21,673 bases of DNA, taken from positions 1 through 21,673 of the IMG/VR virus record IMGVR_UViG_3300035201_000031. One strand, 5' to 3'. Origin of the DNA: a virus. The notes below the pieces were generated by a model. It did not search any database. It saw nothing but the letters and a program-made list of their open reading frames with translations, and was not told the origin of the DNA. The translations under genes and the position numbers were made by a program. Shown one piece after another: positions 2,494 to 21,673 of this stretch (within the stretch, counting starts at the first letter, position 1; each line of letters begins with the position of its first letter).

Positions 2494-2665
2494 CATTGGG
2501 CTGCTTCCAGTCACCAGACTACCGGAGGGCAACGTCAAGCGTCTGACGGAAATGCCTGAGTTTCAGTCCGTAAAGGAATCCTCAGAGGGGGTTAAGCGTT
2601 GGGCGAAGGAAGCCTTGCACTCAGTAAACGACTTAGAATATCAATTAAGGATTAAAGATGACTAA
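2438..2665 (+). CDS. Small lipoprotein, putative outer-membrane spanin (Rz1-like)
   Basis: A 75-residue protein with a typical lipoprotein signal: a short basic start (MLR), a Met/Leu-rich hydrophobic core and a lipobox-like LMTSC with Cys17 as the lipidated residue. The mature part is about 58 residues, charged and mostly helical, with little Pro. The ATG at 2438 is chosen over the upstream in-frame ATG at 2354 because it starts the signal peptide and has AAGGA at 2428-2432. It overlaps the membrane-protein gene upstream (56 bases) and the portal gene downstream (8 bases). In T7 the spanin genes 18.5/18.7 sit next to the terminase genes; here the pair follows terL. The role in outer-membrane disruption at lysis is inferred from signal and architecture, since Rz1 proteins share little sequence. 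Confidence 0.6.
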   Translation: MLRIATSTMLMLLMTSCGSIGLLPVTRLPEGNVKRLTEMPEFQSVKESSEGVKRWAKEALHSVNDLEYQLRIKDD

Positions 2666-4505
2666 CAGGGCAGAACTACACGACAAGATAACTGGCGACA
2701 TTAAGGGTAGGTCAAGGTGGGAGCAGCGTCAAAGCCTATGGTACGAGATGCGGCACACCGGACTCCGAAGGAAGAATAAGCCTTGGAACAATGCAAGCGA
2801 CCTTCACTTCCCTTTATCTGACTCTGTTGTTGAGAGACTGAAACCGTTCTACTATATGCAGATCGTGGGGATGGACACCATAGCCTCATTTATTCCGATG
2901 AGACAGCAGGATGGGGGATTAACTGTTACAGCCGAGCGGTGGTTTGATTATAAGATAAAAGAGAGCACTAACTTTTTATCAGAGGGGCTTACATGGATAG
3001 ATCACGGGCTGATGAGCGGAAGGTCAGTTGTTAAAATCTATTGGGACGCTCAGAAGAAGAAGGTTCAGTACGATGCAATAGACCCCATGATGATTGTGGT
3101 TCCCGAAAAGACTCGCAACCTTCAGGAGTCAGAGCGGGTAGTGAATATAATGCAGATGAGCGTAGATTCGTTTAAGAGCAATCCACTCTATTCCGGCGTT
3201 GACGTAAACGAGATACAGTCCAAGAGGGGCAAGGTCGGCAACAGTAATGAAAAAGAGGTGAACACATATCGCCGCGAAGGAATTAACTATAGCTCTGACC
3301 TGAACAGGATAATTCTGTGGGAGGTTTATGAGAAGAAGGACGGCAAGGTTTTTGTCCAGACGTTCTGCCCAGAGGTTGCCAGCATGGATGTTCGTCCGAT
3401 AATGGAGCTGGATTACAACCACGGCAGTTACCCATTCGTTGATTTCAGTTACGAGATAAAGGACAAGGGCTGGTATTCCCCCAGAGGAGTTTGTGAGATA
3501 CTAGCACCGTTTGAGTCTTCGCTTTGTAAGATGTGGAACGAGAAGCATGATGCTATGACTCTCTACAACCGCCCGATGTTTAAGACGGACAGAGATATTC
3601 CCAACAGCAGTAACATTAGACTTTCCCCTGCCCAGATACTTCCGGTTGGTTTAGCTCCCGTGCAGATGAGCAGCCCTCCGATTAGCTGGGATCAGGAAAT
3701 CGAGATGACACGATATATCGCGGAGCAGCGTATAGGTATGCCCGACTTTGGCGTACAATCAATGCAAAATAAAGGCGACAGACGAACGGCAACCGAAATC
3801 AACGCGATCAGCGGATTAATGGCTGAATCGAATGACCTACGCGCCCGTGTGTTCCGCTTGTCCCTCGGATCACTATATCGGCAGTCTTGGAACCTCTATC
3901 TGCAATACAACAAAGAGGACTTAGACTTCCGGTATCGTGAGGATAATGGACGGATTGAGCCAGAAGCCTTTATGGGCGATTACGTTATCGAGCCAAAAGG
4001 CGGGCCTGACAGCCAGAACAGGGCACTGAAACTGCAACAAGCAATGCAGAGGAAGCAGTTGTTCGCTGGCTCACCGTTCATTAACCAAGCAGAACTGGAC
4101 AGATCAATACTGGAACTGGACGACCCAAGCCTTGTTAGAAGGATGTTCCTAGACCCTCAGATGAGGCAGCAGCATGAAGGGCTTGAGGAGGCTAATAACA
4201 TAGGAATAATGGAAACCGGATTCCCTGTGCCAGTCAGGGGGGATGAGAATTTTGAAATAAGGATAGGAGTTTTGGTTCAATATCTGGATCAGAAGATGGG
4301 ATCGGGTGAAGGAATATCAGAGCAAACTCAACAACTAATCGTTATGCGTATAAGTGAATTGCTGGACGCCTATGAACAGGCCAACCCGAATGCAGCAAGG
4401 CAGCTACGCAAACAGCTCGCCGACTCAGCCGCCTCTTTGGCCGAGGAAAGGCAGATGGGTGCATTGCCGGATGGGGAAGAAGAACAACAGCAAATGCCGC
4501 AATGA
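2658..4505 (+). CDS. Portal protein
   Basis: A 615-residue protein expected to form the dodecameric ring at the packaging vertex, through which DNA enters and leaves. Residues 42-54 (PWNNASDLHFPLS) match the 'PWxxASNxHFPL.D' phrase near the N-terminus of many podovirus-type portal proteins, followed by the helix VVERLKPFYYMQI. The middle contains the alternating strand/helix wing and stem region (for example AIDPMMIVVPEKTRNLQESE). The C-terminal third is helical, ending in an acidic, Gln-rich tail (EEEQQQMPQ) as is common in portals. Length fits the family. It lies between terminase and scaffold/capsid genes, the usual order. The start overlaps the lipoprotein stop. The last 35 bases overlap the start of the HNH gene. 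Confidence 0.88.
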   Translation: MTNRAELHDKITGDIKGRSRWEQRQSLWYEMRHTGLRRKNKPWNNASDLHFPLSDSVVERLKPFYYMQIVGMDTIASFIPMRQQDGGLTVTAERWFDYKIKESTNFLSEGLTWIDHGLMSGRSVVKIYWDAQKKKVQYDAIDPMMIVVPEKTRNLQESERVVNIMQMSVDSFKSNPLYSGVDVNEIQSKRGKVGNSNEKEVNTYRREGINYSSDLNRIILWEVYEKKDGKVFVQTFCPEVASMDVRPIMELDYNHGSYPFVDFSYEIKDKGWYSPRGVCEILAPFESSLCKMWNEKHDAMTLYNRPMFKTDRDIPNSSNIRLSPAQILPVGLAPVQMSSPPISWDQEIEMTRYIAEQRIGMPDFGVQSMQNKGDRRTATEINAISGLMAESNDLRARVFRLSLGSLYRQSWNLYLQYNKEDLDFRYREDNGRIEPEAFMGDYVIEPKGGPDSQNRALKLQQAMQRKQLFAGSPFINQAELDRSILELDDPSLVRRMFLDPQMRQQHEGLEEANNIGIMETGFPVPVRGDENFEIRIGVLVQYLDQKMGSGEGISEQTQQLIVMRISELLDAYEQANPNAARQLRKQLADSAASLAEERQMGALPDGEEEQQQMPQ

Positions 4506-5031
4506 GAAGAGAGACTATAAGAAGTATTACGAAGAAAACAGAGAGAGAATAAGGGAAACTCAGCGGCTATATTATCAGCGCAATAAGAAGAGGCTTCGTG
4601 AAAGGGCTTCCTTGTATTATTACGCGAACAGGAAGAAGGTGCGCGAAGACCAGAAGGTGTACTACGATAAGTACAAAGACCTTATAAATAAGCAGCGCAC
4701 TGAAAAGATGAGGAATAACCCAGAGCTAAGAATTGTAGCAAATCTGAGATCAAGGCTGTCGTCTTATATTTCTGGAAAAAGTAAAAGAACCCTGCAACTG
4801 CTCGGATGCGAAAGAGATCATTTAATTACCCATTTGCAAGTTCAGTTCAAAAAGGGGATGAATTGGGATAATTATGGGAATAAGTGGGCAGTAGATCATC
4901 ATATACCAATCACAGCTTTTGACTTAAATAATAAGAAGGAATTCGAGGCTTGTTGGCACTTTAGTAACTTGAAACCTATGTGGGTTAAGGATAATATAAG
5001 AAAGGGTAATAAGATATGCTTAGAAAGATAA
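4471..5031 (+). CDS. Free-standing HNH endonuclease with Tyr-Tyr repeats
   Basis: A 186-residue protein with a C-terminal HNH nuclease domain: WAVDHHIPI (139-147), the middle FSNLKPMW (164-171) and DNIRKGNK (174-181), the usual 'DHIxPL...NLxPLW...NixKg' layout. Before it lie four units with Tyr-Tyr pairs at 19, 34, 49 and 64, an exact 15-residue period of the form YYxxNxxxxRE; such basic helical repeats precede HNH domains in many phage proteins and probably contact DNA. The ATG at 4471 is chosen because it just precedes the basic repeats; the longer frame from 4354 would only read the portal gene out of phase. The gene is richer in A/T than its neighbours and sits between portal and scaffold, which fits a mobile homing-endonuclease insertion (inference). 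No intein or intron is evident. Confidence 0.85.
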   Translation: MGKKNNSKCRNEKRDYKKYYEENRERIRETQRLYYQRNKKRLRERASLYYYANRKKVREDQKVYYDKYKDLINKQRTEKMRNNPELRIVANLRSRLSSYISGKSKRTLQLLGCERDHLITHLQVQFKKGMNWDNYGNKWAVDHHIPITAFDLNNKKEFEACWHFSNLKPMWVKDNIRKGNKICLER

Positions 5032-6426: not shown

Positions 6427-7440
6427 ATGGCTACACTATCAACAACCAATCCCGCGTCGATTGCTAACGAGTATCAAACATACTTCAGTAAGCAGTTGTT
6501 AGATTACGCGGTACAAGGTTTACGAAAAGCTGAGTTCGGAAAAACTGCACCACTACCAAAAAATGCTGGTGCTCAGACTATCCGATTCTTCCGCTTTAAT
6601 GAACCATCAGCATCCAGCGTGGTAGACCTCACTGAAGGAACCGCGATGGCATCTAGCGCATATCGTGAGCTGACGCTTGCTTATGTCGAGGCGACCCTGA
6701 ACCAAATCGGTCAGGTAATCGCTGTAACAGACGTACTCAACGCTACCTCGCTACTAAACATCATGTCCCAAGCCATCAAAACAAATGGTGAGGACGCTGC
6801 GTTATACTGTGACAACCTCATTCGTAACGAGCTGGTTAATTCCGGTGACACCGATGAGAGTGACAGTCGCACCAAGAAGTATTCTGGAACAGCTACCACA
6901 TTTGCTGAACTGGACGCCTTGACGGATGCGAACGGTAAAATTGACGCAACCGACCTATTGGACAGTGTTACCCAGTTGAAGATCAATCGTGCTCCCCAAA
7001 TTTCTGGGCAGTATGTTATGATCGCTTCACCTCAAGTAACACGCGACCTAATGAACAACTCTGACTGGCTCGAAGCCCATAAGTACAGTGCTGTTCAAGG
7101 TTTGTTTAAGGGCGAAGTGGGCTCGTTCCACGGCGTGAAGGTAATCGAGGACACTAACCCATACATAGAGGGATCAGCCGCCGATAAAGGTACTTATAAT
7201 GCCTCCGGTGATGTATTCTCATCTATCATCTTGGGTGGTGACGCCTTTGGTGTTCCGGCATTAGCTGGCGACTCACCGAAGTCTCCCTCAATAGTTATTA
7301 CGGACACTCCCGATAAGAGCGATCCGCTTAACCAAACCACGACAATCGGCTGGAAGGCACATTACACCGCTAAGGTACTGAACGAAAATTGGTTCATCGT
7401 CCTTCGCTCGAAATCTGCCTACTCGCATGGTGGTTCCTAA
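6427..7440 (+). CDS. Major capsid protein, N4-gp56-like family
   Basis: A 337-residue shell protein. The N-terminus (NEYQTYFSKQLLDYAVQGL), then the phrase TIRFFRFNEPS and a nearby TEGT, is the pattern of the N4-gp56 family of HK97-fold capsid proteins: a short N-arm, the 'YFSK+LLxxA' helix, then 'v.f.rf..l......L.EG'. The core contains a helical segment (LLNIMSQAIKTNGEDAALYC) and the later 'VMIASPQVTRDLMNNSDWLE' segment found in the A-domain region of this family. The C-terminus ends in beta strands (TTTIGWKAHYTAKVLNENWF). No long N-terminal pro-region is present, matching a scaffold supplied as a separate gene. Followed by a possible weak terminator. Family assignment by recognition, strongly supported by context. 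Confidence 0.93.
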   Translation: MATLSTTNPASIANEYQTYFSKQLLDYAVQGLRKAEFGKTAPLPKNAGAQTIRFFRFNEPSASSVVDLTEGTAMASSAYRELTLAYVEATLNQIGQVIAVTDVLNATSLLNIMSQAIKTNGEDAALYCDNLIRNELVNSGDTDESDSRTKKYSGTATTFAELDALTDANGKIDATDLLDSVTQLKINRAPQISGQYVMIASPQVTRDLMNNSDWLEAHKYSAVQGLFKGEVGSFHGVKVIEDTNPYIEGSAADKGTYNASGDVFSSIILGGDAFGVPALAGDSPKSPSIVITDTPDKSDPLNQTTTIGWKAHYTAKVLNENWFIVLRSKSAYSHGGS

Positions 7441-7503: not shown

Positions 7504-7758
7504 ATGCCGTTATACGTTTACGAGAATGACAGTGGAGATAGAGTGGAGGAGTTAAGGTTGTCCAAGGATAAGGATGTGTGCCCAGAGGGATACAAGAGGG
7601 TGGTCATTCCTCAACCCGTAGCCTTCACGGGAGTAGCTTCAAACCCAAGCAATATGAAAGATGGAGTTTTGAAGGGGTACTACAAGCAGGAATGCGATCA
7701 CGGCAGCAAATGGAAGTCTGAGTTCAGCAAAAAACAAATTAAACAAGCATGGGGGTAA
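7504..7758 (+). CDS. FmdB-like small protein with lost zinc cysteines
   Basis: An 84-residue protein. The N-terminus MPLYVYENDSGDRVEEL closely follows the opening of FmdB-type zinc-ribbon proteins ('MPxYxYxCxxCGxxxE'), and CPEGYKRVVIPQPVAFTG (26-43) follows the second half ('CPxCGxxxRRVIS..AFxF.G'). The first CxxC is replaced (Asn8-Asp-Ser-Gly) and only Cys26 of the second pair remains, so metal binding through the ribbon is unlikely. The C-terminus is basic (KSEFSKKQIKQ). Ribosome site AAGG at about 7494 supports the start. FmdB-like proteins occur near capsid genes in some phages; their role is unknown. The similarity is by eye and partial. Confidence 0.5.
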   Translation: MPLYVYENDSGDRVEELRLSKDKDVCPEGYKRVVIPQPVAFTGVASNPSNMKDGVLKGYYKQECDHGSKWKSEFSKKQIKQAWG

Positions 7759-7761
7759 CTA

Positions 7762-8106
7762 ATGCCTAGAGAAGATATTAATGATGTAGGAACGATGGTG
7801 TCCAACACAACTTGGGACAACGATCTAATAGTTCGTAGGGGAGGTGGCGTAATGCTGGGCCTTCTAGGGTCATCTAAAAAAACGAGCGCACAATGGGTTA
7901 TGGTGTTCGATAGCAAGACTGCCGTAAGTGACGGGACAGCCCCCGCGATACATCCCATATTCATAGCGGCTGAAGATAACTTCTATATTGAGGTTCCGGT
8001 ACGAGGAATGAACTTCGAGAGCGGTATTTATGTAGCCAACTCAACCACCAACACAACGCTCACCTTGGGTTCTGCCGACTGTTGGTTTACGGCGGTGATA
8101 ATATGA
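7762..8106 (+). CDS. Small beta-rich hypothetical protein, possible virion decoration or fibre-base protein
   Basis: A 114-residue protein with no recognised domain. It is predicted mostly beta: GGGVMLGLLGSSKKTSAQWV (27-46), HPIFIAAEDNFYIEVPV (64-80), then GIYVANSTTNTTLTLGSADC (88-107). The pattern (short strands, 'GIxVANSTT', 'SADCWF') resembles small beta-sandwich proteins encoded next to fibre genes in environmental phages, but I cannot name a family. The G-rich site GGGGG at about 7751 supports the ATG at 7762. The stop overlaps the fibre start as ATGA, so translation is probably coupled. A role at the capsid surface or fibre attachment is inference from position. Confidence 0.55.
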   Translation: MPREDINDVGTMVSNTTWDNDLIVRRGGGVMLGLLGSSKKTSAQWVMVFDSKTAVSDGTAPAIHPIFIAAEDNFYIEVPVRGMNFESGIYVANSTTNTTLTLGSADCWFTAVII

Positions 8107-11100
8107 GTCAAAGTAGTTCAACTTTAGTCGGCCATGATGCTCATCTCTGGACGGAAAGCGGCGATGATGTCTACCGCAGTTCCGGCAATGTCGGCATAGG
8201 TGCTGCGTCTCCAACCTCTCCCCTTCATGTAGAAAAATCGGTCATGGGCAATAGTGATTACCTTGCCTACCTATACAACGGTGATTCCGGTACAACACAC
8301 CACGGACTTAACGTACAGATAGCTGCCTCGGATGCAGGGTCATATGGTCTGCGTGTTAGCACAGGCTCCAACACTAACTCTCTTGCCGTGATGGGGGATG
8401 GCAACGTCGGCATAGGTACTGCGTCTCCGAGCTCTCCCCTTCATGTCCAAGGTGTAGCATCCGGTGTTGGTCTACGAATTGAAGATACGGGAGTAACTGA
8501 TGGAATTTACTTTTACGAGAATGGAACAGCCCTTGGAGTCCTCGGTTATGGTGATGACGGGAATATAGTAACTGGTGCTTCCGCTAATTCAATGACACTG
8601 CGAGCAACGAACGCACTTCACTTCGCTACAAATGGAAACAATTTAAGGGCTACTATAGATTCTTCGGGCAACGTCGGCATAGGTACTTCGTCTCCGTCAC
8701 GAAATCTATCCGTATATGGAGCCTCTCAATCCAACATAGCACTGTTCACATCTGGAACCGGAACCACAACCAGTGACGGGCTACAGCTAATAACGGACGG
8801 TGCGGCTGCTTATCTTGAGTTCCGCGAGAACGGCCCGATGCACTTTGCAACCAACTCAAGCCAACGCATGACCATTTCTGCGGCGGGCAACGTCGGCATA
8901 GGCACTGCGGCTCCATTAGCCAAAATTGACGTTTTGGGAAGCGACTCGTATCTGGGGATGTTCAGGAACACGCAAGGGGGAATCAGACTTCAAACGGATT
9001 CTTCGTTAAATCATATTGTTAGTAGAGGTGCCGCCGACAGCGGGTATAGAGATTTGGAAATCAGAGCAGCCGCTAGTGGTTCGGGAATGACAATCACAAC
9101 CGGAGGCAATGTCGGCATAGGAGGTACTCCAGCAGCTAAATTATCCGTGATGGGAGATAATGCGCTGCGTACTGTATTGCAGATAAAAGAGGAAGGGGCT
9201 GGTGATCCTAGTATATGGTTTACTCTGGATGACTCTGTTGGAACCCCGTTTGCTATGGGTGTGGACAACAGCAACAGTGATTCATTCGTAATTGCTGGCA
9301 GTTATGACCTAAACTCTAATCCGAGATTAACAATCGACTCGTCAGGCAAGGTCGGCATAGGTACTACGGCTCCGTCTAAAGCACTTCATGTGGTCGGGGG
9401 GTCTGGAGACGCTATTCTTGTCGATAATAAAATCACTGGAGCGGGGAGTTACCTAATCCTTGATACGGCAAGTGCTGGCGATTTAGTCGTAAGGACGGCT
9501 GGCTCTCATCTGATGTCTGTAAACAGCACGGGCGTTGGTATAGGCACTGATGATCCAACAAACGCAAAGCTAGTAATAAACCACGCAGGCACATCAACTC
9601 CCACAGATAGCATAGAGCTGTTGGGAACCTCCATAACTACGGGGGGAGGAACTGGACTTTTCCTAAAAGCCTCAAACTCCACGACAGCATCTAGGTTCGG
9701 AGCGAGGGTACATACAGTTCGGGAGGCAACAAACAACGGGGCTACATCGCTTGTGTTTAGCACGGACGACAGTTCCTCGTTGAATGAAGCTATGCGAATC
9801 GACTCGGCAGGCAGGGTCGGCATAGGAGGTACGCCAATATCGGACTCAAAGCTGGATGTTTCGGGCGCGGGGACGCAACGGGTTTATGTGCGTGAAACAG
9901 GCTCCACTGTTAGCACGAAACTCTTGTCAACCACATCAAAAGGGGTGATTGGGACAGAGACGAACCATAACTTTGAAATTGCGACCAATGACGCAACAAG
10001 ATTAATCATCGACTCGTCAGGCAAGGTCGGCATAGGAGGCACACCAGTTAAACCCCTGCACGTCTTTGGAGATGCTGGAATGTCTGTTCAGAGAAGCACT
10101 GACGATAGCGTATTTATTATAAATAATGTAGGTGATGAGTGGCTTTTACAATCCTCCTTCGGATCAACAGGCTCCTATGACCCGATTGTGTTTAAGACAT
10201 CGGACGCCGTGCGGATGCGGATTGAAGCCAATGGGGCAATTGGAATTGGCGGAGCAAACTACGGGACTTCAGGTCAGGTCTTAACCAGCGGAGGTTCTGG
10301 AGCCGCCCCAACTTGGGAAGATGTTTCGGGCGGCAGCAGTGCTTGGACAACTAGCGGGGATGATATTTATTACAATACTGGCGACGTCGGAATAGGCACT
10401 ACGTCTCCGACAGCAAAGATTGAAATAGTCCAAACAGCGGCAACCCGTGGATTCCAAGTCATCCGCAATGAAGATCAAGCTAACACCGAGGCTCTTGCTT
10501 ACTTCACGGACGAACACCCTTCAAGTACTCAAGCTACTGTCCGAATCCGAAACGATGGTACTGGTGATGCGTTACAGGTCATGGATGGCTCTAGCTCCGC
10601 ACTTATCGTCGATGGGTCGGGCAAGGTCGGCATGGGTACTGCGGCTCCGTCGCAACAACTTGACGTAAGAGAGGATCACAATGGGTCAACGATTATTCAA
10701 GCAACCAATGAGGGCACTGGCGCGTCCGCACAAACCCAATTAAGGGTCAAGTCCAACTCTGCACTCGGACTCATCACTATCCAAGATGACGGTTATACTT
10801 CGTCCGGTCTTTACCAAGCAGACGCGCTTTCGATTTTCGCCGCAAGCACGGCATCTGGAGGTTTGATTCTCGGCACTGAAGGCGACCATGATGTTTCGTT
10901 CTATCAGAATAACGCATCTAAAATGACCCTCGATGGCACTGGGTTGGGCATAGGCACTTCGTCTCCTGATAAGGAGTTACATATACATCACGCATCTTCT
11001 GCGGTTATCAAAATATCAAATGATACAACAGGACAAGGGGCTACTGACGGGTTTTTGTTAGGACAAGCTGCTGCTGCTGGTGCGATTGAGCTATGGAATT

Positions 11101-11729
11101 TTGAAAACTCATATACACGGTTTGCTACTAATAATGCCGAACGGATGCGAATCGACAATTCAGGCAACGTCGGCATAGGTACTGTGGCTCCGTCTGGCAC
11201 TTGTCATATCGTATCTTCTGACTCAAATACCCAGTTAATCGTTGAGGGTACAGGGACTAACGCTCACACCAGAGTAAACCTAAAGAGTCAAGGCACTGGT
11301 AGTGGTATCATACAGGTTCAAGGTACTGAATGCCTACGGATCGGGGCTAGAGGCCAAGTTCAAACGACCGCGAAGGTTATCACTCCAAGCTCATCTGCTA
11401 CCGTCACTTACGAAGTGGACATGGGCGGGAGCAATATCCAGAACCTCGTATGCCATGAAGATAATCAGGATATTACAATTAATGTAACCAATATGGACGC
11501 AGCCCGTGCGATTAAGCTGCACGTTGATTTTAGCAATGTTTCATCATTTAGCTCACTAACAGTAAATTGGAACACTAACCAAATTTATGACGATATGGCA
11601 GGAGGCATGGTTGACGGTATAGGTGACGACTTGATTGGAGCAGGTACTTTCTATAACTATATGGTTGATCTTGTCGCATACGGAACCAGCGCAAGTGATG
11701 TTTATGGCTCTGCTACTCAATTCTCATAA
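8103..11729 (+). CDS. Giant repeat-built tail fibre
   Basis: A 1208-residue protein made of about 14 modules, each with a VGIG core in the phrase 'SG(N/K)VGIGTxxPxxxLHV' and 50-105 residues between cores, the trimeric beta-fibre architecture seen in many phage fibres. First core at residue 30, last near 1023. Residues about 720-770 (GTSGQVLTSGGSGAAPTW, then AWTTSGDDIYYNTGDVGIG) repeat the N-terminal LWTESGDDVYRSSGNVGIG block, suggesting a two-unit fusion. The C-terminal 130 residues differ (ITINVTNMDAARAIKLHVDF and onward) and probably form the tip or receptor-binding end. No S74-type intramolecular chaperone is visible there, although this repeat is often followed by one. The ATG at 8103 is chosen because of its ATGA overlap. 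Binding target unknown. Confidence 0.85.
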   Translation: MSQSSSTLVGHDAHLWTESGDDVYRSSGNVGIGAASPTSPLHVEKSVMGNSDYLAYLYNGDSGTTHHGLNVQIAASDAGSYGLRVSTGSNTNSLAVMGDGNVGIGTASPSSPLHVQGVASGVGLRIEDTGVTDGIYFYENGTALGVLGYGDDGNIVTGASANSMTLRATNALHFATNGNNLRATIDSSGNVGIGTSSPSRNLSVYGASQSNIALFTSGTGTTTSDGLQLITDGAAAYLEFRENGPMHFATNSSQRMTISAAGNVGIGTAAPLAKIDVLGSDSYLGMFRNTQGGIRLQTDSSLNHIVSRGAADSGYRDLEIRAAASGSGMTITTGGNVGIGGTPAAKLSVMGDNALRTVLQIKEEGAGDPSIWFTLDDSVGTPFAMGVDNSNSDSFVIAGSYDLNSNPRLTIDSSGKVGIGTTAPSKALHVVGGSGDAILVDNKITGAGSYLILDTASAGDLVVRTAGSHLMSVNSTGVGIGTDDPTNAKLVINHAGTSTPTDSIELLGTSITTGGGTGLFLKASNSTTASRFGARVHTVREATNNGATSLVFSTDDSSSLNEAMRIDSAGRVGIGGTPISDSKLDVSGAGTQRVYVRETGSTVSTKLLSTTSKGVIGTETNHNFEIATNDATRLIIDSSGKVGIGGTPVKPLHVFGDAGMSVQRSTDDSVFIINNVGDEWLLQSSFGSTGSYDPIVFKTSDAVRMRIEANGAIGIGGANYGTSGQVLTSGGSGAAPTWEDVSGGSSAWTTSGDDIYYNTGDVGIGTTSPTAKIEIVQTAATRGFQVIRNEDQANTEALAYFTDEHPSSTQATVRIRNDGTGDALQVMDGSSSALIVDGSGKVGMGTAAPSQQLDVREDHNGSTIIQATNEGTGASAQTQLRVKSNSALGLITIQDDGYTSSGLYQADALSIFAASTASGGLILGTEGDHDVSFYQNNASKMTLDGTGLGIGTSSPDKELHIHHASSAVIKISNDTTGQGATDGFLLGQAAAAGAIELWNFENSYTRFATNNAERMRIDNSGNVGIGTVAPSGTCHIVSSDSNTQLIVEGTGTNAHTRVNLKSQGTGSGIIQVQGTECLRIGARGQVQTTAKVITPSSSATVTYEVDMGGSNIQNLVCHEDNQDITINVTNMDAARAIKLHVDFSNVSSFSSLTVNWNTNQIYDDMAGGMVDGIGDDLIGAGTFYNYMVDLVAYGTSASDVYGSATQFS
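8175..11215 (+). repeat. Dispersed VGIG-encoding repeat cores in the fibre gene (about 14 copies)
   Basis: The 11-base core GTCGGCATAGG occurs exactly at 8190, 8406, 8673, 8892, 9111, 9351, 9816, 10026 and 11169. Near copies are at 9534, 10386, 10626 and 10944, and a divergent one is near 10239. All are in the same reading frame. Flanks often continue as TACTGCGTCTCCG-like sequence. Spacing varies from roughly 150 to 320 bases, so this is a protein-module repeat, not a CRISPR array. Confidence 0.9.
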
Positions 11730-13620: not shown

Positions 13621-14268
13621 ATGACCAAGGCAGCATTAGCGCAATTTGTGGCAGATAAGGTTCAGAAAACCGACCAAGGAAGCCTTAACTTACTGAAGTC
13701 ATTCATTGACCGAAGATATGAGATGATATGGGATTCTGCATTATGGAGAGAGAGTCTTGGAACAACATCATACACGGTAGCTATAGATACTCAGGAAGTT
13801 ACCCTTGACTCAACTGTTGACTTCCCTGTTGCCGCAGTGTGGGATGATAAGGAAATTACTCCTGTTGACTACTCGGCAGTATTCCAGATAGACCCAACCC
13901 TCTTCAATGACTCAGGAGAAGTGGTTAACTTTATTGTAACAGCAAAGAGTAGCTCTGGGGCGGCGAAGATTAAATTACTAAGGAAACCTAAAGAATCCAA
14001 GACGCTCCTTATTCTGGGAAAACTCAAGATTACGTCCCTTGGAGACTCTGACTCTCCGCTTATCAAGGGCACAGATAACTCCCTGCTTGCTTTCGTTGAG
14101 GGAGATATGCTTGAGCACTTACGTCAGTACCAGAAAGCTCAGATGAAATATCAAGAAGCAGCCTCCCAGCTACAGATAGCTAAAGACATGGAGAACCATC
14201 AAGCTGCTTCAAACACAAGGATAATACCGGAGGTTAAGAGTGATTGGAACACAACTGACTTCTTATAA
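13621..14268 (+). CDS. Tail adaptor / tubular-protein-A-like head-tail connector
   Basis: A 215-residue protein. The N-terminal helix pair (LNLLKSFIDRRYEMIWDSALW, about 22-42) with Trp37 and Trp42 and the following 'TSYTVAIDTQEVTLDSTVDFP' is the pattern of podovirus adaptor proteins that dock under the portal (T7 gp11 type), which have a small alpha bundle and a beta insertion. The C-terminal helix (EHLRQYQKAQMKYQEAASQL) is long and charged, again as in adaptors. It is followed directly by a nozzle-like gene through a TAATG overlap, the usual order. GGAG at 13613 gives a normal ribosome site. No enzyme motif is seen. The exact family is unverified. Confidence 0.72.
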   Translation: MTKAALAQFVADKVQKTDQGSLNLLKSFIDRRYEMIWDSALWRESLGTTSYTVAIDTQEVTLDSTVDFPVAAVWDDKEITPVDYSAVFQIDPTLFNDSGEVVNFIVTAKSSSGAAKIKLLRKPKESKTLLILGKLKITSLGDSDSPLIKGTDNSLLAFVEGDMLEHLRQYQKAQMKYQEAASQLQIAKDMENHQAASNTRIIPEVKSDWNTTDFL

Positions 14269-15836
14269 TGCCCGTACACTACAATGACGGTCTTGACGAC
14301 CAGCTTGCTTACGACCTCACTGGCACTTTCATAGGCGGTCAGATAAGCAATGTACGCGCAAATCTCCTAAAGGACTCTCAGTTTTCAGAAGCCAAGAACA
14401 TGGACATAGACAGGTTTGGTGCTATAACCACCCGTCGAGGCACATCTTTGGTTGGCTCAACATTAACCAATCCCATCTTAGGATTAAGCTACTTTGACAC
14501 TCCATCCTACGAAGAGATACTGGCTGTATCCAACGGAGTCCTCTATAAGTCTACTGGCTCCTCTTTCTCATCCGTATCTGGCTACTCGCCTCAGGCAACA
14601 AGCAATGTCGAGTTTGCTCAGTTGGTTGATAAGGTTTATATGTCCAGCGGTGAGACTTCATCAGACCCAGACACTACCTATTACGTTGGCGGTGGGACAT
14701 CATGCACTTCCGTATCAGCAGCCCCTAAGAGCAAGTATCTGGTGACTCACACTAACAGGCTATTCGCCGCCAACACTGAGAATTACGATGATGAAGTGGC
14801 TGCGAGTGATCTTTTGGATGGGGGTACTTGGGGCTCATCATTCCAGTTCAGGGTTGGAGGTGGTGAGGGCGATCCGATTGTCGGAATAGTTAGCTGGTAT
14901 AACTTTAATCTGCTTGTGTTTAAGAAGAGGTCTATTCATGTCATATCCACAGACCCCTCCCAGACAACGGCAGCTAACTGGAATGTTCACAGGATTGATA
15001 ATACGGTTGGGTGTGAGAGTCACAGAACCATAGCTCAGGCAGGGGCAGATGTTTTCTTTCTTGCTAGAGATGGAGTTAGGACTGTCAGGACTATTTTATC
15101 CGGTGCTCAATCTTCCGTGTCCGAGCCTATATCCATACCTGTTGATGACTACATAAAGAGGATTAACTGGAGCCATGCCTCAAAGAGTTGCGCTAAGTTT
15201 TGGAATAATAGATACATAATAAGTGTTCCTATTGATAGCTCTACCACACCTAATTACACTCTTGTCTTTAATACTATAACTAAGTCTTGGTCTGGGTACT
15301 GGACTGGGTGGACTCCATTGTGCTTTTCTGAGTCTGGGTTTTCCAGCTTTCCTAAAATGATAATGGGAGATAGCTCTGGGAATGTATCTACATGGCTTGA
15401 CTATATTTCCGAGTCGTCAGAATCAATCTCTACATTTCAGGATAATGGAACTGATTATGCCTCCAAGCTGGTTACTAGGGCTCATGTGTTTGGTGACCAT
15501 CTGTCTCCCAAGCTAGGGAACCATGTTGATGTTGAGCTTAAAGGTCATATTGCGGGATCAGAGTCCGGCAGCTTCCTGACTACTCTTGATGGTGCTGGAG
15601 GCTCCGCTGAAATATCTCTGGACGATGGGGTATCTAATGCAGGAACCACCAACTCCCTGCCGATTAATTTGCCATTCAACCTCCCCACAGTTCGGGTTTT
15701 CAATAAGTCATATAACCTAACTACGCAGGGTGAATTTAACGAGATTCAGTTTACAGTACACTGGTCTAGCGGTTATCTTCATCTTAGGTCTATTAAGGCA
15801 AGTGCTTATATGAACACAATGGCTCTGGAGAAATGA
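14268..15836 (+). CDS. Tail nozzle / tubular-protein-B-like or stabilisation protein
   Basis: A 522-residue protein. Residues 30-60 carry RANLLKDSQFSEAKNMDIDR and GAITTRRGT, the 'N.. ... E..N..i.. .G.i.rR.G' opening typical of podovirus nozzle and DNA-stabilisation proteins. The rest is almost entirely short beta strands with Gly/Ser turns (LAVSNGVLYKSTGSSFSSVS, DVFFLARDGVRTVRTILSGA, NTITKSWSGYWTGWTP), consistent with a beta-propeller nozzle. It would form the tail tube end through which DNA leaves. The start overlaps the adaptor stop and the end overlaps the next start, so the three genes are probably translated as one unit. Length is somewhat shorter than T7 gp12; direct family relation is not proven. 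Confidence 0.75.
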   Translation: MPVHYNDGLDDQLAYDLTGTFIGGQISNVRANLLKDSQFSEAKNMDIDRFGAITTRRGTSLVGSTLTNPILGLSYFDTPSYEEILAVSNGVLYKSTGSSFSSVSGYSPQATSNVEFAQLVDKVYMSSGETSSDPDTTYYVGGGTSCTSVSAAPKSKYLVTHTNRLFAANTENYDDEVAASDLLDGGTWGSSFQFRVGGGEGDPIVGIVSWYNFNLLVFKKRSIHVISTDPSQTTAANWNVHRIDNTVGCESHRTIAQAGADVFFLARDGVRTVRTILSGAQSSVSEPISIPVDDYIKRINWSHASKSCAKFWNNRYIISVPIDSSTTPNYTLVFNTITKSWSGYWTGWTPLCFSESGFSSFPKMIMGDSSGNVSTWLDYISESSESISTFQDNGTDYASKLVTRAHVFGDHLSPKLGNHVDVELKGHIAGSESGSFLTTLDGAGGSAEISLDDGVSNAGTTNSLPINLPFNLPTVRVFNKSYNLTTQGEFNEIQFTVHWSSGYLHLRSIKASAYMNTMALEK

Positions 15837-16363
15837 CTGATGACCACTCCACAAGATTTAGAATTACTGATATCATTAGCTTCTGTCGGGGGAGTGACAC
15901 CAGAGGGCTCTGTTTCGGAGGATGGCCGGACAATATCTTGGGCATATACCTCAGGTTCCACCACGAAAATGGAAGTCTCTGTCTCGTCGAGGAGGCTGGT
16001 GTACTGGTCGGGATGGGAGTGGGATTCAGAATCAATGAAAGTGACTTGGATCGGCATTGGCAACCCTTCAACCCAGAGGGCGACAGTTTCTACCTCTCGG
16101 ACGTTATATGTTCGGAAAGGTGGGTCGTGGACACTATCATCGATGAGATTGAAAAAAGGGCTCCCGATTGGAGAGAACTCAAGCTATTCGCTATTAGACA
16201 TGGTAAGAGAAGAAGGATTCCACCAGAATTAATTGAGAGGGTTTTATATGGAAATAAGCGGCCCAGTAATAAAAGGAAGGCAGTATCAGGACAAGGTTCC
16301 GACTGCGAATATACTAATGGAGAAAGCAGCACCAGCAGGGGTGTATGTAGGGAGTGCGTTTGA
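15833..16363 (+). CDS. Small virion-region protein, possible GNAT-like (acetyltransferase) fold
   Basis: A 176-residue protein whose ATG overlaps the nozzle stop (ATGA). Residues 36-95 show a strand-rich run (LGIYLRFHHENGSLCLVEEA, then GVLVGMGVGF, later DSFYLSDVICSE), a helix (VVDTIIDEIEKRA) and a final strand (RELKLFAIRHGKR), a layout like short acetyltransferase-fold phage proteins. The usual acyl-CoA loop (Q/RxxGxG/A) is not visible, so catalysis is doubtful. Residues 139-176, after RVLYGNK, lie in the overlap with the next gene and are Ser/Arg/Lys-rich. A competing frame, 15840-16232, looks less like protein. T7-type phages have small internal-virion genes at this point, so a particle role is possible. 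Confidence 0.5.
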   Translation: MTDDHSTRFRITDIISFCRGSDTRGLCFGGWPDNILGIYLRFHHENGSLCLVEEAGVLVGMGVGFRINESDLDRHWQPFNPEGDSFYLSDVICSERWVVDTIIDEIEKRAPDWRELKLFAIRHGKRRRIPPELIERVLYGNKRPSNKRKAVSGQGSDCEYTNGESSTSRGVCRECV

Positions 16364-16580
16364 TATTAACGGATCGCTACTAGGAAGGTCTTTTGTTTTT
16401 ATAACAGACTATTCCCCTGAGGTTGCAGAAACTTACATTACCGGATACTGGGGTAAGGAGCTTTATGGTAAGTTTATTGGTGTGGAAGATATGGTAAAAC
16501 TAGATAGGGACGACATGAGACATCTTTATGATAATGCAATGAACGCTTGGGAGGATCACAATGTACGAGCAATGCCTTAA
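16248..16580 (+). CDS. Compact riboflavin-kinase-like protein (flavokinase fold)
   Basis: A 110-residue protein with GAGAGGG at 16235-16241 before the ATG. It aligns by eye along its whole length with riboflavin kinases, which turn riboflavin and ATP into FMN: GPVIKGRQYQ, then PTAN (18-21, whose Thr and Asn bind the metal and nucleotide), GVYVG (31-35), a strand around GRSFVFITDY, ETYITGYW with Glu61 at the catalytic base position of human RFK, ELYGKFIGVE (71-80) and KLDR (84-87). The glycine-rich loop before PTAN is shorter and less Gly-rich than usual. There is no FAD-synthetase half as in bacterial RibF. It lies inside the structural gene block. It may be an active kinase or a reused fold; I consider family membership likely, activity open. 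Confidence 0.72.
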   Translation: MEISGPVIKGRQYQDKVPTANILMEKAAPAGVYVGSAFDINGSLLGRSFVFITDYSPEVAETYITGYWGKELYGKFIGVEDMVKLDRDDMRHLYDNAMNAWEDHNVRAMP

Positions 16581-17514
16581 TATAGCTAAGAAGATAACTG
16601 AATCATACCGCAATAAGTGGTGGGCTGCGGCTGATGCCGTTAACAAGGGAACCCCACCACCGCCAGCAACTCCAAACTATGCCGAGGCGAACCGTGAGGG
16701 GATCATTGCCGATGTGGAGAGTCTCCCTGCTCGGAAAGCTATTGAGGCTGCTGCCAAGATGGGTGGGCATGGTCAGGTTACAATAGGTGACAGAGCTATT
16801 GATTACGATTTCCGTGGAATATCTGACCTAGATCAACAGGTAGGAAATCTGGAGGGGTTCTCCCGCAGTGCAGATACTATGGCCCAGACTGCTCTTGATA
16901 TCCAGAAGAAGTACGGTGCTCAGTTTGCTGATGAGGCATTGAAGCGGATTGAGGAGTCCGACCCTACGGGCTTTAAGGTTAGGAAAAGGCTTGCTGAGAT
17001 GACCCTAGCCGAGCTTGAGAAAGGAACTCAGTTATCTGATGAGGAGGTTAGGGTTGCGGAACAAACATTCAGGCGTTCAGCGTCAGCGCGAGGAGGGTCT
17101 ATGCTTGGCACTGCTCCGGCGATGCAGGAAACCTTATCTCAGTACAACATGGGCAGGAGGTTATTAGGTGATCGCATGAACATGGCTAGAGCATATATGG
17201 GTATGCCTCAAACGGCTCAGTTCGGTCAGGTGGCTGGTGCTCAACAGGGTGCGGCTCCGTTAATGGGTCAGCAACTACAGCAAGGTATGGGAGTGAATCC
17301 TAATGCTGGTGCTCTGGGTACTCAGTTTGCAGCTAATGTTTTCGGGACACAGGCGAGTATATACGGAACTCAAATGCAGAATCAAAGTGATCCGTTCGGG
17401 GCGGTTCTTGGAGGTGTAGCAAAAATAGGAATGACAGGTTTTGCTGGTGGCCTTGGAGGGATTGGTCAGGATGGTGGATTCTGGGGCGGTGTAGGTGGAG
17501 CATTTAGAAAATAA
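16561..17514 (+). CDS. Internal virion / head-tail region protein
   Basis: A 317-residue protein with GGAGG at 16550-16554 before the ATG, overlapping the previous gene by 20 bases. Residues 1-20 include a charged helix; 33-37 are Pro-rich. Residues 38-190 are charged, mostly helical and Ala-rich (LPARKAIEAAAKMGG, YGAQFADEALKRIEES). Residues 195-250 carry phrases such as LLGDRMNMARAYMGMPQTAQF followed by GQVAGAQQGAAPLMGQQLQQ, which I associate with a widespread, unnamed phage family encoded next to ejection proteins. The C-terminus is glycine-rich and mildly hydrophobic (GFAGGLGGIGQDGGFWGGVG), perhaps a membrane- or capsid-binding tail. No enzyme motif. Likely packaged in the particle (inference). 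Confidence 0.6.
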   Translation: MYEQCLNIAKKITESYRNKWWAAADAVNKGTPPPPATPNYAEANREGIIADVESLPARKAIEAAAKMGGHGQVTIGDRAIDYDFRGISDLDQQVGNLEGFSRSADTMAQTALDIQKKYGAQFADEALKRIEESDPTGFKVRKRLAEMTLAELEKGTQLSDEEVRVAEQTFRRSASARGGSMLGTAPAMQETLSQYNMGRRLLGDRMNMARAYMGMPQTAQFGQVAGAQQGAAPLMGQQLQQGMGVNPNAGALGTQFAANVFGTQASIYGTQMQNQSDPFGAVLGGVAKIGMTGFAGGLGGIGQDGGFWGGVGGAFRK

Positions 17515-17529
17515 TAGGAGAATATAATT

Positions 17530-19854
17530 ATGGCGGAATATGGATTTGAAAAAGGCTGGAACGCTGCTGGTAGCGCACTAGACGAAATGAGGCAGGGCTG
17601 GAATGATGCCTCCAGAAGAAAAAGGGATGAGGCCGAGGCCAAGCTAGTTAAGAAGAAGGCTAGGGAGCTGGGGCTTAATATAAGGTCTAAGAAAAAAGGT
17701 GGATACTGGGATGAAAAGACCGACCTACCTAAATCTAGCTCCTTTTACCTAGAGAAAGCTAGTGAGCAAACTGATCCAGCAAGGAAAAAGGTTTATGAGG
17801 AGCTTGCTAAAGAGTCTGGTATGGAGTCGGGGCCGCTTACAGGGCAGTATCATGAGCGAGTAACAGCGGAAACTGGCGGTATGGTTGCTGATACTGATAA
17901 AAAGAAGATAGCCAATAGACAGGAAGGTGCCAAGGCAAGGCAGCTAGAAGCTGTTACTAAAGAATTAGGAAAATCTCCAGATGCCTACAAGAGAATTGCT
18001 GCGTCTCAAGTCATAAAGGGAGAAGTTGATATAGCTTCCACTGTAGCGGCTACTGCTAAGACCAAAGAAGAGACAGTGGGGCTAAAACATTCAAACAGCG
18101 TATTCATTGAAAACAACAAGGCGAACAACGCTCTGAACAAAGCAGAAAGTGAAGCGAGGGTAAAAGAAAGCGGGGAACGCCTCTTAAAAATTCAGCAGGA
18201 GATGGCCGCCACCGCTGCCACATCCGAGAAGGTGATAGAGCACAATGAAGTCCTTGACGATTATTCTGCAAGTGTATCAGAGATGATAGGCAGGGTGAGT
18301 GATGGTGAAAATGTATTACAAGACCTAAAAACAATAAGACAGGCAATAGCCGAGATGCCAACTTTCGTGTCAGGGAGCGTCACTGCAACGGAATCCGTTA
18401 ATGCCAAGAGGGATGCGCTTGTAGCTCAGTTAAAGGTTAAAGAGCAAGAGTTGGTTAGCTCAAAACAGTTCAGGATAGCCAAGGAAAAGGAGGCTAATTC
18501 TGTAACCGCCATGTCTTATATTAATGGAGATCCAAAACTTAAATCTTTATATAAGAGCCTAGAGGGCGACCCAATATCACAGGCTGAAATGGAGATACCT
18601 ATTTGGGTGGCTGAAAGGCTTACTGATGCTGGTGTGCCTCTTGGGGTTATGAGGGATAAAGATTTCAACGAGCAAGTCATGAGGGTTGTTCCGCACCCAG
18701 ACCCAAATAAAAGACATTTCCCTGATGGTAAAGGTGGCTGGCAGTTTGATCCGAAAACGGGAAAGCTGTATACCAGAATGGTCATGATGGAGAATAGTGT
18801 CATGAATAACCTAGATGACTTTATAGGGGTCTGGAAAGCCAAGAGGACTCCTACTCCCATGGTTCGCGACTCACTTACTACAGGCGGACAAACGGGCCAA
18901 AGTGGAAAAATTGACATTGGATTAGGCAGCGCGACACCACCGCCGCCTAGGTATCAGGAATCTATGGAATCATCAGCAGCCTTCAGGGAGGGGAAAGACA
19001 TTGATTTTGAAACATACGAAGGAAAAACTACTGGCGGGGAGATTGATGAAGTCCTCCATAGCTTGACTAATCGTGAAGAGGACAACCTTGCAACCGCAGT
19101 TAGGGGAATGACTGAGGAACGCAGAAAGGAAATGTACGATAAAACTCGTATGTCGAAGCAATGGCTTGATTATCACCTTGATAAGCCCTCTACTCCCGAA
19201 ACCCCACTACCGTATCACAGCCGCTCCGCTGCCCCTGCTGTTTCCACTCCGGCTGCTGCTCCACCCGCATCTCCAGCCGCCCCTGAACCAACTCCACAAA
19301 CCGAGCCAAATGAATCTGAGTTGAGAAGTCTTTCCGGCATAAATGAAGAGCAAGCTAAGGCACTGGACAAACTCGATGTGGATTGGAGAGATTCCAAGCT
19401 ATCTGGCCCTAACTTAATAAGCAATGAAATATCCTCTGCCTCTAGGGAAGTTGAAAGGATTAAGGGGTCGATTAAGGAAAAGTCTACTACTCTTAAAAAA
19501 GGACACGCCGCCACAAAGCTTTCAGACCTATCAGGCATTGGAGGAACCACTAGCGCAGTAAATCTATCTCCAAGGGAAAAAATTGCTCTCAGGAAGGAAA
19601 TTGAGAGAGATGAGATCGAATTAAAGGCAAGAGAGAAAAAACTTATAGAGCTTCAACGCCTCCTTAGCCCAAGAGATTCTAGCCCTTGGGAGGGTGGTGG
19701 TTCTCTTTCTATGGGGAGACTTCCTGAAGATAAGAAAAAGAAAGAAACCAAGCCAAAGCCGCGTAAGTATCGAAGCCCAAGCATGAATCCGAACCTTAAT
19801 CCTAATTTGATGCCTAAAAAGAGCCTTAAGGCAACTGATAAGGCCGAAGGATAA
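17530..19854 (+). CDS. Large helical internal/ejection-type protein
   Basis: A 774-residue, strongly charged and mostly helical protein without cysteine-rich or enzyme motifs. Residues 1-50 are basic and amphipathic; 180-330 look like extended coiled coil (ARVKESGERLLKIQQEM and onward); 350-440 form a more globular part with several Pro and Trp (GGWQFDPKTGKLYTRMVM). Residues 556-593 are a Pro/Ala/Ser linker; 635-712 form another coiled coil (LRKEIERDEIELKAREKKL). The tail is very basic with an NPNLNPNLMP repeat. AGGAGA at 17516-17521 supports the start. Place and composition fit podovirus proteins that are ejected into the cell with the genome (T7 gp14-gp16 type), but no sequence similarity is evident to me. 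Confidence 0.6.
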   Translation: MAEYGFEKGWNAAGSALDEMRQGWNDASRRKRDEAEAKLVKKKARELGLNIRSKKKGGYWDEKTDLPKSSSFYLEKASEQTDPARKKVYEELAKESGMESGPLTGQYHERVTAETGGMVADTDKKKIANRQEGAKARQLEAVTKELGKSPDAYKRIAASQVIKGEVDIASTVAATAKTKEETVGLKHSNSVFIENNKANNALNKAESEARVKESGERLLKIQQEMAATAATSEKVIEHNEVLDDYSASVSEMIGRVSDGENVLQDLKTIRQAIAEMPTFVSGSVTATESVNAKRDALVAQLKVKEQELVSSKQFRIAKEKEANSVTAMSYINGDPKLKSLYKSLEGDPISQAEMEIPIWVAERLTDAGVPLGVMRDKDFNEQVMRVVPHPDPNKRHFPDGKGGWQFDPKTGKLYTRMVMMENSVMNNLDDFIGVWKAKRTPTPMVRDSLTTGGQTGQSGKIDIGLGSATPPPPRYQESMESSAAFREGKDIDFETYEGKTTGGEIDEVLHSLTNREEDNLATAVRGMTEERRKEMYDKTRMSKQWLDYHLDKPSTPETPLPYHSRSAAPAVSTPAAAPPASPAAPEPTPQTEPNESELRSLSGINEEQAKALDKLDVDWRDSKLSGPNLISNEISSASREVERIKGSIKEKSTTLKKGHAATKLSDLSGIGGTTSAVNLSPREKIALRKEIERDEIELKAREKKLIELQRLLSPRDSSPWEGGGSLSMGRLPEDKKKKETKPKPRKYRSPSMNPNLNPNLMPKKSLKATDKAEG

Positions 19855-19861
19855 TTAGCTA

Positions 19862-21673
19862 ATGTCCGACATTATAAAGCTATGGAGGGTTAAATACCCA
19901 GACCAGACTGCTGGCAAAAGTGATAGGGAGATTGCATTAGCTATTGCGGCTAGTGACCCTGCTGCTGTCTATAGGCATCGCTCAATAAGGGATCACGTTG
20001 AAGCAGCAAAGAGGGACACAGAAAGGTCTAATGGTGCAGCGTTTGACAGTGATACAGTACGAAGGAATCACGAAAGACTAAACAGCAACCGAGAGCGTGG
20101 GATATTCTCTACCTACCTAGATGATCCCCGTAAGCGCGGTGTCTTGATGTCTAAACAGGCTGATCTTATATCATCATTCGCTGGCCCTAAGAAAGAGTTT
20201 ACCCGTGAGGACGCAGCCAAACTTGTCCAGATAAGAAAGGAAATGGAGGAGCTTGAGGTTTCCCCACACTTCAAAGAGTTCCAAGAGGCTACTGGGTTTG
20301 TTGATTCTTGGGGTGAGTTCTGGGGGTTAAAGGAAACTCCGGCTATTTTAGCTGAAGTAACTACTGAATCCTTAGCCGCCCTACTCCATCACGGCTGGGA
20401 TAAGATCGGTGCTGGGGTTGCTGGCGGTGCTGGCACTGGTGCTGCTGCTGGTGCTATAGGTGGGCCTCTTGCTGGAGCTACTGCTGGTGCTGGTGCTCTG
20501 TGGGGAGGTGCTGCTGGAATGGGTAAGACATCCTATAACTTATCTGCCTCCTCCAAGTTCCTAGAAACCATCGAGGCTACTGTAGGCAGGGATGTGATGG
20601 ACGACCCTCAGGCTTTGTTTGATGTCATAAATGATCCTGACAAGATGAAGCAAGCAAGGGCGAAGGCTATTAAGTACGGCTTACCTGTGGCTGTATTTGA
20701 TACTATGTCTTTGGGCATTACTGGAAGGGCCGCTACCGTGGCTGGAAGAATTTCCACTGCTGCTGGCTCCAAGGCTAAGGCGATAGGGGCTAGGACTTCC
20801 GCTAAAATACCAAAGACGGGGTTATTAGATGAGGCTGCTAGGATTTCCCTTTTGGGAACCGAGAAAGCCGCCCCGTTCCTAGCCCCGACAGCTTTTCAGG
20901 GTGTGCTTGGTGGTGCTGGTGATGCCTTTGGTCAGTTGGCATCCGAGGGTAAGATTGACGATTGGAAGAGTGTATTCCGTGAGGGTATAGCAGAGTTCGG
21001 GATGGCTCCATTTGACCTGACTGTAGGGCATCTAACCAAGGACATGACCCCAGAACACGCCAAGGCACTTAATGATAGGATTAATGATTTCAGGAAAGCT
21101 GGCGTTACTTCAGACCAGCAGAAAGAGGGTGTTCAGATAGATTTGGATCGTGGAGACTTAACCAAGGGCGAGGCTGAAGTATACAATTTACACATTGACG
21201 AGGTTTATCAGGTAAAGAGTAGGGACGAGAAGGCTATTCCCCCAAGTGAAGAAGGTGCTATATCCAGAACCGGACACAAAGAGGCTCTGAAAACAATCAA
21301 CGCTGCTACAGACAGAGCCATAAGGCAAGCAGCCAGAGATTATGCAGCAAGAGCAAGCCAGACACCAGATGCCCAACCTGTATCTGAGATTGTTGTAGGC
21401 AAGGTGGCTGATGTTGACAAGTACAATTCCTTGGAGGATGCGGAGGAAAGACAGGATATGGTAGACCGTGATATCGTCACCATAGAAAGGAATCCATCTG
21501 CCGACAGACTGAAAGAGATAGCAAAGAAGAAGGGAATTAAAGCAAGCACTACTGTAACGGCGGCAGGGCAACAGAGACTATCCTTAAAGGGTGAATCAAT
21601 GGAGCTTTCAAATGCAATCGAAATTCTTACAGGAGCATTGGGTAAAAAGGATTTCAGTGTTCTCGCAAGCCCT
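19862..21673 (+). CDS. Very large internal/ejection protein with glycine-zipper membrane segment (3' truncated)
   Basis: The frame runs open from the ATG at 19862 for 604 codons to the window end, so the C-terminus is missing. GAAGGAT at 19846-19852 precedes the start. Residues 1-180 are charged and helical. Residues 181-220 are a Gly/Ala-rich segment with repeated small residues (VAGGAGTGAAAGAIGGPLAG), like the glycine-zipper spans of phage ejection proteins that insert in the host membrane. A second Ala/Gly-rich stretch (270-310) and a segment AFQGVLGGAGDAFGQLASEG (344-363) recall large polyvalent internal proteins of environmental phages. The region after 400 is charged, without recognised enzyme motifs. 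Role in forming a DNA-entry channel is inference; enzymatic domains may lie beyond the edge. Confidence 0.7.
   Translation, partial: MSDIIKLWRVKYPDQTAGKSDREIALAIAASDPAAVYRHRSIRDHVEAAKRDTERSNGAAFDSDTVRRNHERLNSNRERGIFSTYLDDPRKRGVLMSKQADLISSFAGPKKEFTREDAAKLVQIRKEMEELEVSPHFKEFQEATGFVDSWGEFWGLKETPAILAEVTTESLAALLHHGWDKIGAGVAGGAGTGAAAGAIGGPLAGATAGAGALWGGAAGMGKTSYNLSASSKFLETIEATVGRDVMDDPQALFDVINDPDKMKQARAKAIKYGLPVAVFDTMSLGITGRAATVAGRISTAAGSKAKAIGARTSAKIPKTGLLDEAARISLLGTEKAAPFLAPTAFQGVLGGAGDAFGQLASEGKIDDWKSVFREGIAEFGMAPFDLTVGHLTKDMTPEHAKALNDRINDFRKAGVTSDQQKEGVQIDLDRGDLTKGEAEVYNLHIDEVYQVKSRDEKAIPPSEEGAISRTGHKEALKTINAATDRAIRQAARDYAARASQTPDAQPVSEIVVGKVADVDKYNSLEDAEERQDMVDRDIVTIERNPSADRLKEIAKKKGIKASTTVTAAGQQRLSLKGESMELSNAIEILTGALGKKDFSVLASP

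Follow-up and report, generated by a model that had tools for sequence, protein, structure and literature searches.

A predicted riboflavin kinase-fold protein encoded at a fixed position in the ejection operon of uncultured podoviruses

Analysis of the whole IMG/VR record IMGVR_UViG_3300035201_000031 (21,673 bases, here called the window) identified a 110-amino-acid (aa) protein that is, by profile score and predicted fold, a member of the flavokinase domain family of the riboflavin kinases (RFKs). The reading that we favor, with a probability of roughly 0.55, is a minimal single-domain RFK-fold protein that binds Mg-ATP, probably transfers phosphate, is fixed in the ejection operon of uncultured podoviruses, and acts there. 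The TAN residues of the Mg-ATP motif and the glutamate at the catalytic-base position are invariant among 37 distinct phage homologues, and the flavin-facing parts of the domain are changed.

The window is a podovirus late region, in which profile matches identified the terminase (353-1846), the portal (2658-4505), and the major capsid protein (6427-7440). An open reading frame (ORF) between the portal and the scaffold region (4354-5031, plus strand) has a C-terminal part that looks by eye like an HNH endonuclease (VDHHIPITAF...NLKPMW). The capsid gene is followed on the plus strand by a 1215-aa fibre-like protein with many degenerate "GNVGIGT..P...L.V" repeats (8082-11729), a 215-aa tail accessory (gp4-like) protein assigned by position and size and conserved here in relatives (13621-14268), and a 522-aa tail nozzle or DNA stabilization protein matching PHROG 578, head closure Hc3 (14268-15836). 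A GNAT-like gene at the position of T7 gp13 comes next (15833-16363, plus strand), and the RFK-like gene lies between it and three genes, also on the plus strand, that by position and size probably encode the ejection proteins: the first (gp14/gp7-like, 317 aa, 16561-17514), with no Pfam match above the cut-off, the second (gp15-like, 774 aa, 17530-19854), and the third (gp16-like, 19862-21673), which is open at the contig end. In a related 38-kb record, a third ejection-type protein of about 2,335 aa is split over two loci (L103/L104) and has no Pfam match.

The RFK-like gene occupies positions 16248-16580 on the plus strand, stop codon included, and is preceded by a ribosome-binding site, GAGAGG (16236-16241), that ends 6 nucleotides before the ATG. 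The motifs listed in the initial annotation were recovered in this 110-aa ORF: PTAN at residues 18 to 21 (16299-16310), GVYVG at residues 31 to 35, Glu61 (16428-16430) within ETYIT, LYGKF at residues 72 to 76, and KLDR at residues 84 to 87. KLDR, which that annotation had also counted as a riboflavin kinase motif, fails as one, being no counterpart of the conserved "LR.E..F.S" of RFKs, which the phage protein does not have. The gene overlaps that of the first ejection protein by 20 nucleotides and carries the GGAGG ribosome site of the latter within its own 3' end (16550-16554); this overlap and the internal site make translational coupling of the two genes probable. Between the window and its relative L003 the dN/dS of the RFK-like gene is approximately 0.11, with four-fold sites free to change, and by this measure the gene is under purifying selection.

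Homology to riboflavin kinase is supported by several searches. The Pfam family PF01687 (Flavokinase) scores the protein at 25.8 bits, above its cut-off of 19.6 (E = 1.3e-5), and matches all 26 relatives scanned (E values up to 0.1, best 7.5e-8), and no other family is convincing. A profile built from the phage family finds the RibF of Thermotoga at 2.4e-6 and that of Streptococcus pneumoniae at 0.004, and a profile-profile comparison between the phage family and seven RFKs gives a probability of 96.7% and an E value, for that single pair, of 4.4e-10. The AlphaFold model made from 26 sequences (pLDDT 92, pTM 0.82), which supersedes an earlier one made from 7 sequences (pLDDT 74), predicts a six-stranded antiparallel barrel (residues 3-8, 20-23, 31-39, 44-52, 59-64, and 76-85) followed by a helix (residues 87-105). 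The top 32 Foldseek matches of this model in the PDB are all riboflavin kinases, with human RFK (1q9s) ranking first (E = 2e-4), followed by the Thermotoga, S. pneumoniae, Schizosaccharomyces pombe, and Corynebacterium ammoniagenes enzymes, at moderate TM-scores of about 0.5 to 0.65. In a viral structure library, the best match is the giant-virus riboflavin kinase of Fadolivirus (A0A7D3R2S5). The initial annotation had made the RFK assignment depend on a flavokinase profile match and on an RFK-like barrel, and both were found. Its remark that the FAD synthetase part is absent also holds, as the ORF contains no N-terminal FMN adenylyltransferase domain and scores 20.4 bits against the NCBIfam equivalog of the bifunctional enzyme (ribF), far under the cut-off of 306. 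It is very improbable that the resemblance is due to chance or that the ORF is spurious. A single-sequence phmmer search of the protein against the PDB returned noise and no RFK, as such a reading would predict, but it is already refuted by the profile and fold results, the 26 of 26 Pfam matches, the purifying selection, and the conservation of the start codon and the neighboring genes.

Conservation within the phage family was assessed on the 37 distinct homologues, drawn from about 40 contigs, among which divergence reaches 68%. Residues G5, V7, G10, K16 (16293-16295), T19, A20, N21, G31, G46, E61, Y63, L72, Y73, Y94, and A97 are invariant wherever the position is present. The retention of the catalytic residues, proposed from the window's protein, extends to the family, with T19, A20, N21, and E61 the same in all 37 sequences; the proline of PTAN varies once (36 of 37). 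PTAN and GxY are known RFK motifs, and PTAN is part of the Mg-ATP site (PMC2972280; for PTAN also PMC6010069), while the glutamate serves as the catalytic base (PMC5428420, PMC2972280). The GxY motif reads GVY in the window (residues 31 to 33, 16338-16346), and its last position is tyrosine in 83% of the phage family and tryptophan in the remainder. The (D/E)LYG turn (residues 71 to 74, 16458-16469) is as in RFKs. When the 21 columns conserved across seven RFKs (six with solved structures plus that of Escherichia coli) were compared with the 19 near-invariant columns of the phage family, 11 coincided with the same residue (hypergeometric p = 4e-5), representing the barrel core, PTAN, the glycine of GxY, the glutamate, and the tyrosine of DLYG.

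Two flavin-facing elements of RFKs are changed. The glycine-rich flap I (GRxLGF or GRGSKxLGI) is replaced in the alignment by a loop that has about three residues fewer and ends in K-(V/P), and the C-terminal flavin lid (LR..F.S...L......D) is missing, with all five RFK-conserved columns (R, F, S, L, and D) differing. The C-terminal helix (residues 87 to 105, 16506-16562) instead carries a phage-specific Y94-D95-x-A97 where RFKs have the LR..F.S part of the lid, and K16, P57, Y94, and D95 are new invariant or near-invariant residues of the phage family. The matching elements of the C. ammoniagenes enzyme, namely, L1c-flap I, L6c, and helix alpha1c, shift so as to cover the flavin ring (PMC5428420). 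Constraint on the Mg-ATP and base residues is thus complete, but the parts that face the flavin are altered. Because flap I and the C-terminal lid, two defining substrate-binding elements, are not found, we do not assign the protein to riboflavin kinase (EC 2.7.1.26). The loss of the lid makes riboflavin doubtful as the substrate, and together with the shorter flap I it points to a possible change of acceptor away from riboflavin or to a possible loss of catalysis. These changes count against FMN formation by the protein but not against a function like that of an Mg-ATP kinase with this fold.

The position of the gene is the same throughout the family. A first scan found 9 loci, and profile and neighbor-based scans extended these to the 37 distinct proteins on about 40 uncultured contigs, which range from 97 to 118 aa in the sequences seen and are 36 to 97% identical to the window's protein in the 26-sequence alignment. 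Wherever a contig extends far enough, the gene order is nozzle, GNAT-like, RFK-like, and ejection protein. A search with the RFK-like protein as the sole query returned only this slot, which means that neighbor-based searching does not account for the fixed position. The structural locus described for the window is accordingly kept in every relative found to have the gene. Six contigs (L057, L058, L059, L060, L061, and L067) are without it; in these the GNAT-like gene directly abuts the ejection gene, and a profile search of the six records found no RFK-like copy elsewhere in them. They make up a single clade (support 91/87) adjacent to the group that contains the window, and deeper branches carry the gene, a pattern that fits one loss. 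Distances between RFK-like proteins correlate with those of the nozzle (0.61) and the ejection protein (0.64; Mantel test, 0 of 500), and the gene appears to be vertically inherited, congruent with the structural genes. No real relative of the family was found in the cultured phages searched or in two scans of bacterial genomes. Several candidates were rejected. L014 (36% identity over 64 residues) is a chance match to a RecT-like gene, and weak matches in Erwinia and Dickeya jumbo phages are likewise due to chance, no ORF at the place inspected in pEa_SNUABM_33 resembling the family. RibF matches in the phage collection were mostly short unannotated contigs, the annotated ones being bacterial ribF, and the sole RibF match in IMG/VR (L111) is a fused bacterial RibF after a TruB-like gene.

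The GNAT-like neighbor probably has an overprinted partner. The GNAT-like gene matches PF00583 weakly in 5 of 16 relatives. Its core (15833-16243) is conserved, and its tail is variable, as judged from the differing stop positions: the frame enters the RFK-like gene by approximately 115 nucleotides in the window, L003, and L010 and ends at the RFK-like start in L006 (counterpart at 7588-8010) and L007. A second conserved ORF of 130 aa (15840-16232, plus strand) spans nearly the whole length of this gene in the +1 frame. In 23 representative relatives, the +1 frame is open for 106 to 136 codons, compared with about 41 to 71 expected from resampling synonymous codons with each contig's own usage (p = 0.00 to 0.03 in all relatives except L067, 0.06). 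Four-fold sites differ less in the GNAT-like gene than in the nozzle gene in 12 of 12 pairs, by about 2- to 9-fold in most (0.07 against 0.62 between the window and L003), and the +1-frame protein is 35 to 80% identical between relatives. This strong constraint on synonymous sites suggests that the stretch (15833-16243 and 15840-16232) is probably dual-coding. Among contigs of the window's group and of the clade without the RFK-like gene, the +1 frame has an invariant start methionine, one relative with TTG being the exception; no ATG is conserved at the start in the more distant group, which makes dual coding less certain in that group.

One branch of the initial annotation, in which the protein would be a genuine riboflavin kinase that raises FMN in the infected cell as the product of an auxiliary metabolic gene, is unlikely. 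The Flavokinase match and the conserved catalytic residues agree with it, but the flavin-lid residues are lost, the window encodes no companion FAD synthetase, and no thyX, a possible reason for making flavin, was found in 13 related records. Further, no flavoenzyme was found among the selected larger proteins scanned in two related genomes; that scan gave an integrase, a DnaA-C/nuclease-like protein, a cytosine methylase, a DnaG-type primase-helicase, and a metallophosphoesterase. The integrase (L110, 4363-5520) suggests that some members of the group are temperate. The marks of auxiliary metabolic genes, namely, variable position, patchy presence, and a close cellular relative, were not found either. 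That the gene is never seen away from the ejection operon, together with the lack of a flavoenzyme in the genes sampled, indicates that it is not a routine metabolic gene and leaves the FMN-raising role without positive support.

Another possibility, though we consider it doubtful, is that the RFK fold is catalytically dead and has only a structural or assembly function in the virion, PTAN and the glutamate being retained because they help folding or hold a ligand. Such a protein would be in keeping with the fixed structural locus, the loss of the flap I glycines and the LR..F.S lid, and the newly fixed K16, P57, Y94, and D95. However, T, N, and Glu, the most catalysis-specific residues, belong to the small set without any variation across the 37 sequences, and a dead scaffold would be expected to have lost at least the base somewhere. 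Plant and type II FAD synthetases that are without RFK activity, or are thought to be without it, have lost PTAN from their RFK modules in this way (PMC2972280). The invariance of TAN and Glu in the 37 sequences, set against that loss, favors a retained kinase. Work in the ejection module, as opposed to the flavin economy of the host, is favored by the likely expression with the virion genes, as suggested by how the operon is laid out, by the single position kept despite deep divergence, and by a loss confined to one clade; a point against an ejection-module kinase is that one subclade lives without the gene.

We therefore prefer the RFK-fold protein acting in the ejection operon, which may be a working kinase adapted to a job in the virus particle. 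Judged from the retained TAN and Glu, it would still bind Mg-ATP and would probably still transfer phosphate. The recipient could be riboflavin or a changed acceptor, which the phage-specific C-terminal helix (Y94, D95, and A97) would hold in the place of the lost lid. The operon layout suggests that the protein would be made late with its neighbors and could help to assemble, load, or operate the ejection apparatus. It could do so from within the particle or, if not packaged, as an assembly factor comparable to the small protein encoded at this place in T7-like phages. Its position suggests that it may be packaged in the particle. In a narrower version, which is tentative and doubtful, the protein would be an active RFK-fold kinase, of small molecules or of proteins, that is packaged alongside the ejection proteins or has them as its target, and it would provide an ATP- or flavin-dependent step in building or operating the DNA-ejection machine. 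If active, the protein would be the first cofactor-chemistry enzyme built into a phage ejection module and, at about 100 residues, among the smallest kinases known; if inactive, it would be an ancient enzyme fold reused by viruses with its catalytic residues preserved. From our searches and to our knowledge, the flavokinases in tailed-phage data are limited to virome reads or to probable contamination from the host, and none is a constant part of a virion operon. The literature searched yielded no report of an RFK within a structural operon of a phage and mentions riboflavin kinase only at the virome level (PMC8876492, PMC6008428).

The phage protein shares the six-stranded barrel and helix with the RFK module of RibF (Thermotoga maritima 1mrz and C. 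ammoniagenes 5a88), and G.V..G, PTAN, GxY, the catalytic Glu, and DLYG are common to both in the same order. Unlike RibF, it has no FMN adenylyltransferase half, lacks about three residues of flap I, and carries the YD.A helix in place of the LR..F.S lid, with its gene in a virion operon. Monofunctional eukaryotic RFKs (human 1q9s and S. pombe 1n05) are stand-alone domains, as is the phage protein, but are about 150 aa long compared with 97 to 118 aa, and the phage protein is without their GRGSK flap and lid motif. The Fadolivirus RFK is likewise a small virus-encoded RFK fold, only 20% identical to the phage protein, from what we take to be a giant virus and not a phage. We know of no RFK-like gene described at this place in the ejection operons of T7 or P22. 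In those operons (13-14-15-16 in T7 and 14-7-20-16 in P22), one or more small proteins are encoded after the nozzle and directly upstream of the three ejection proteins, as in the window, and T7 gp13 corresponds to the GNAT-like neighbor rather than to the RFK-like protein.
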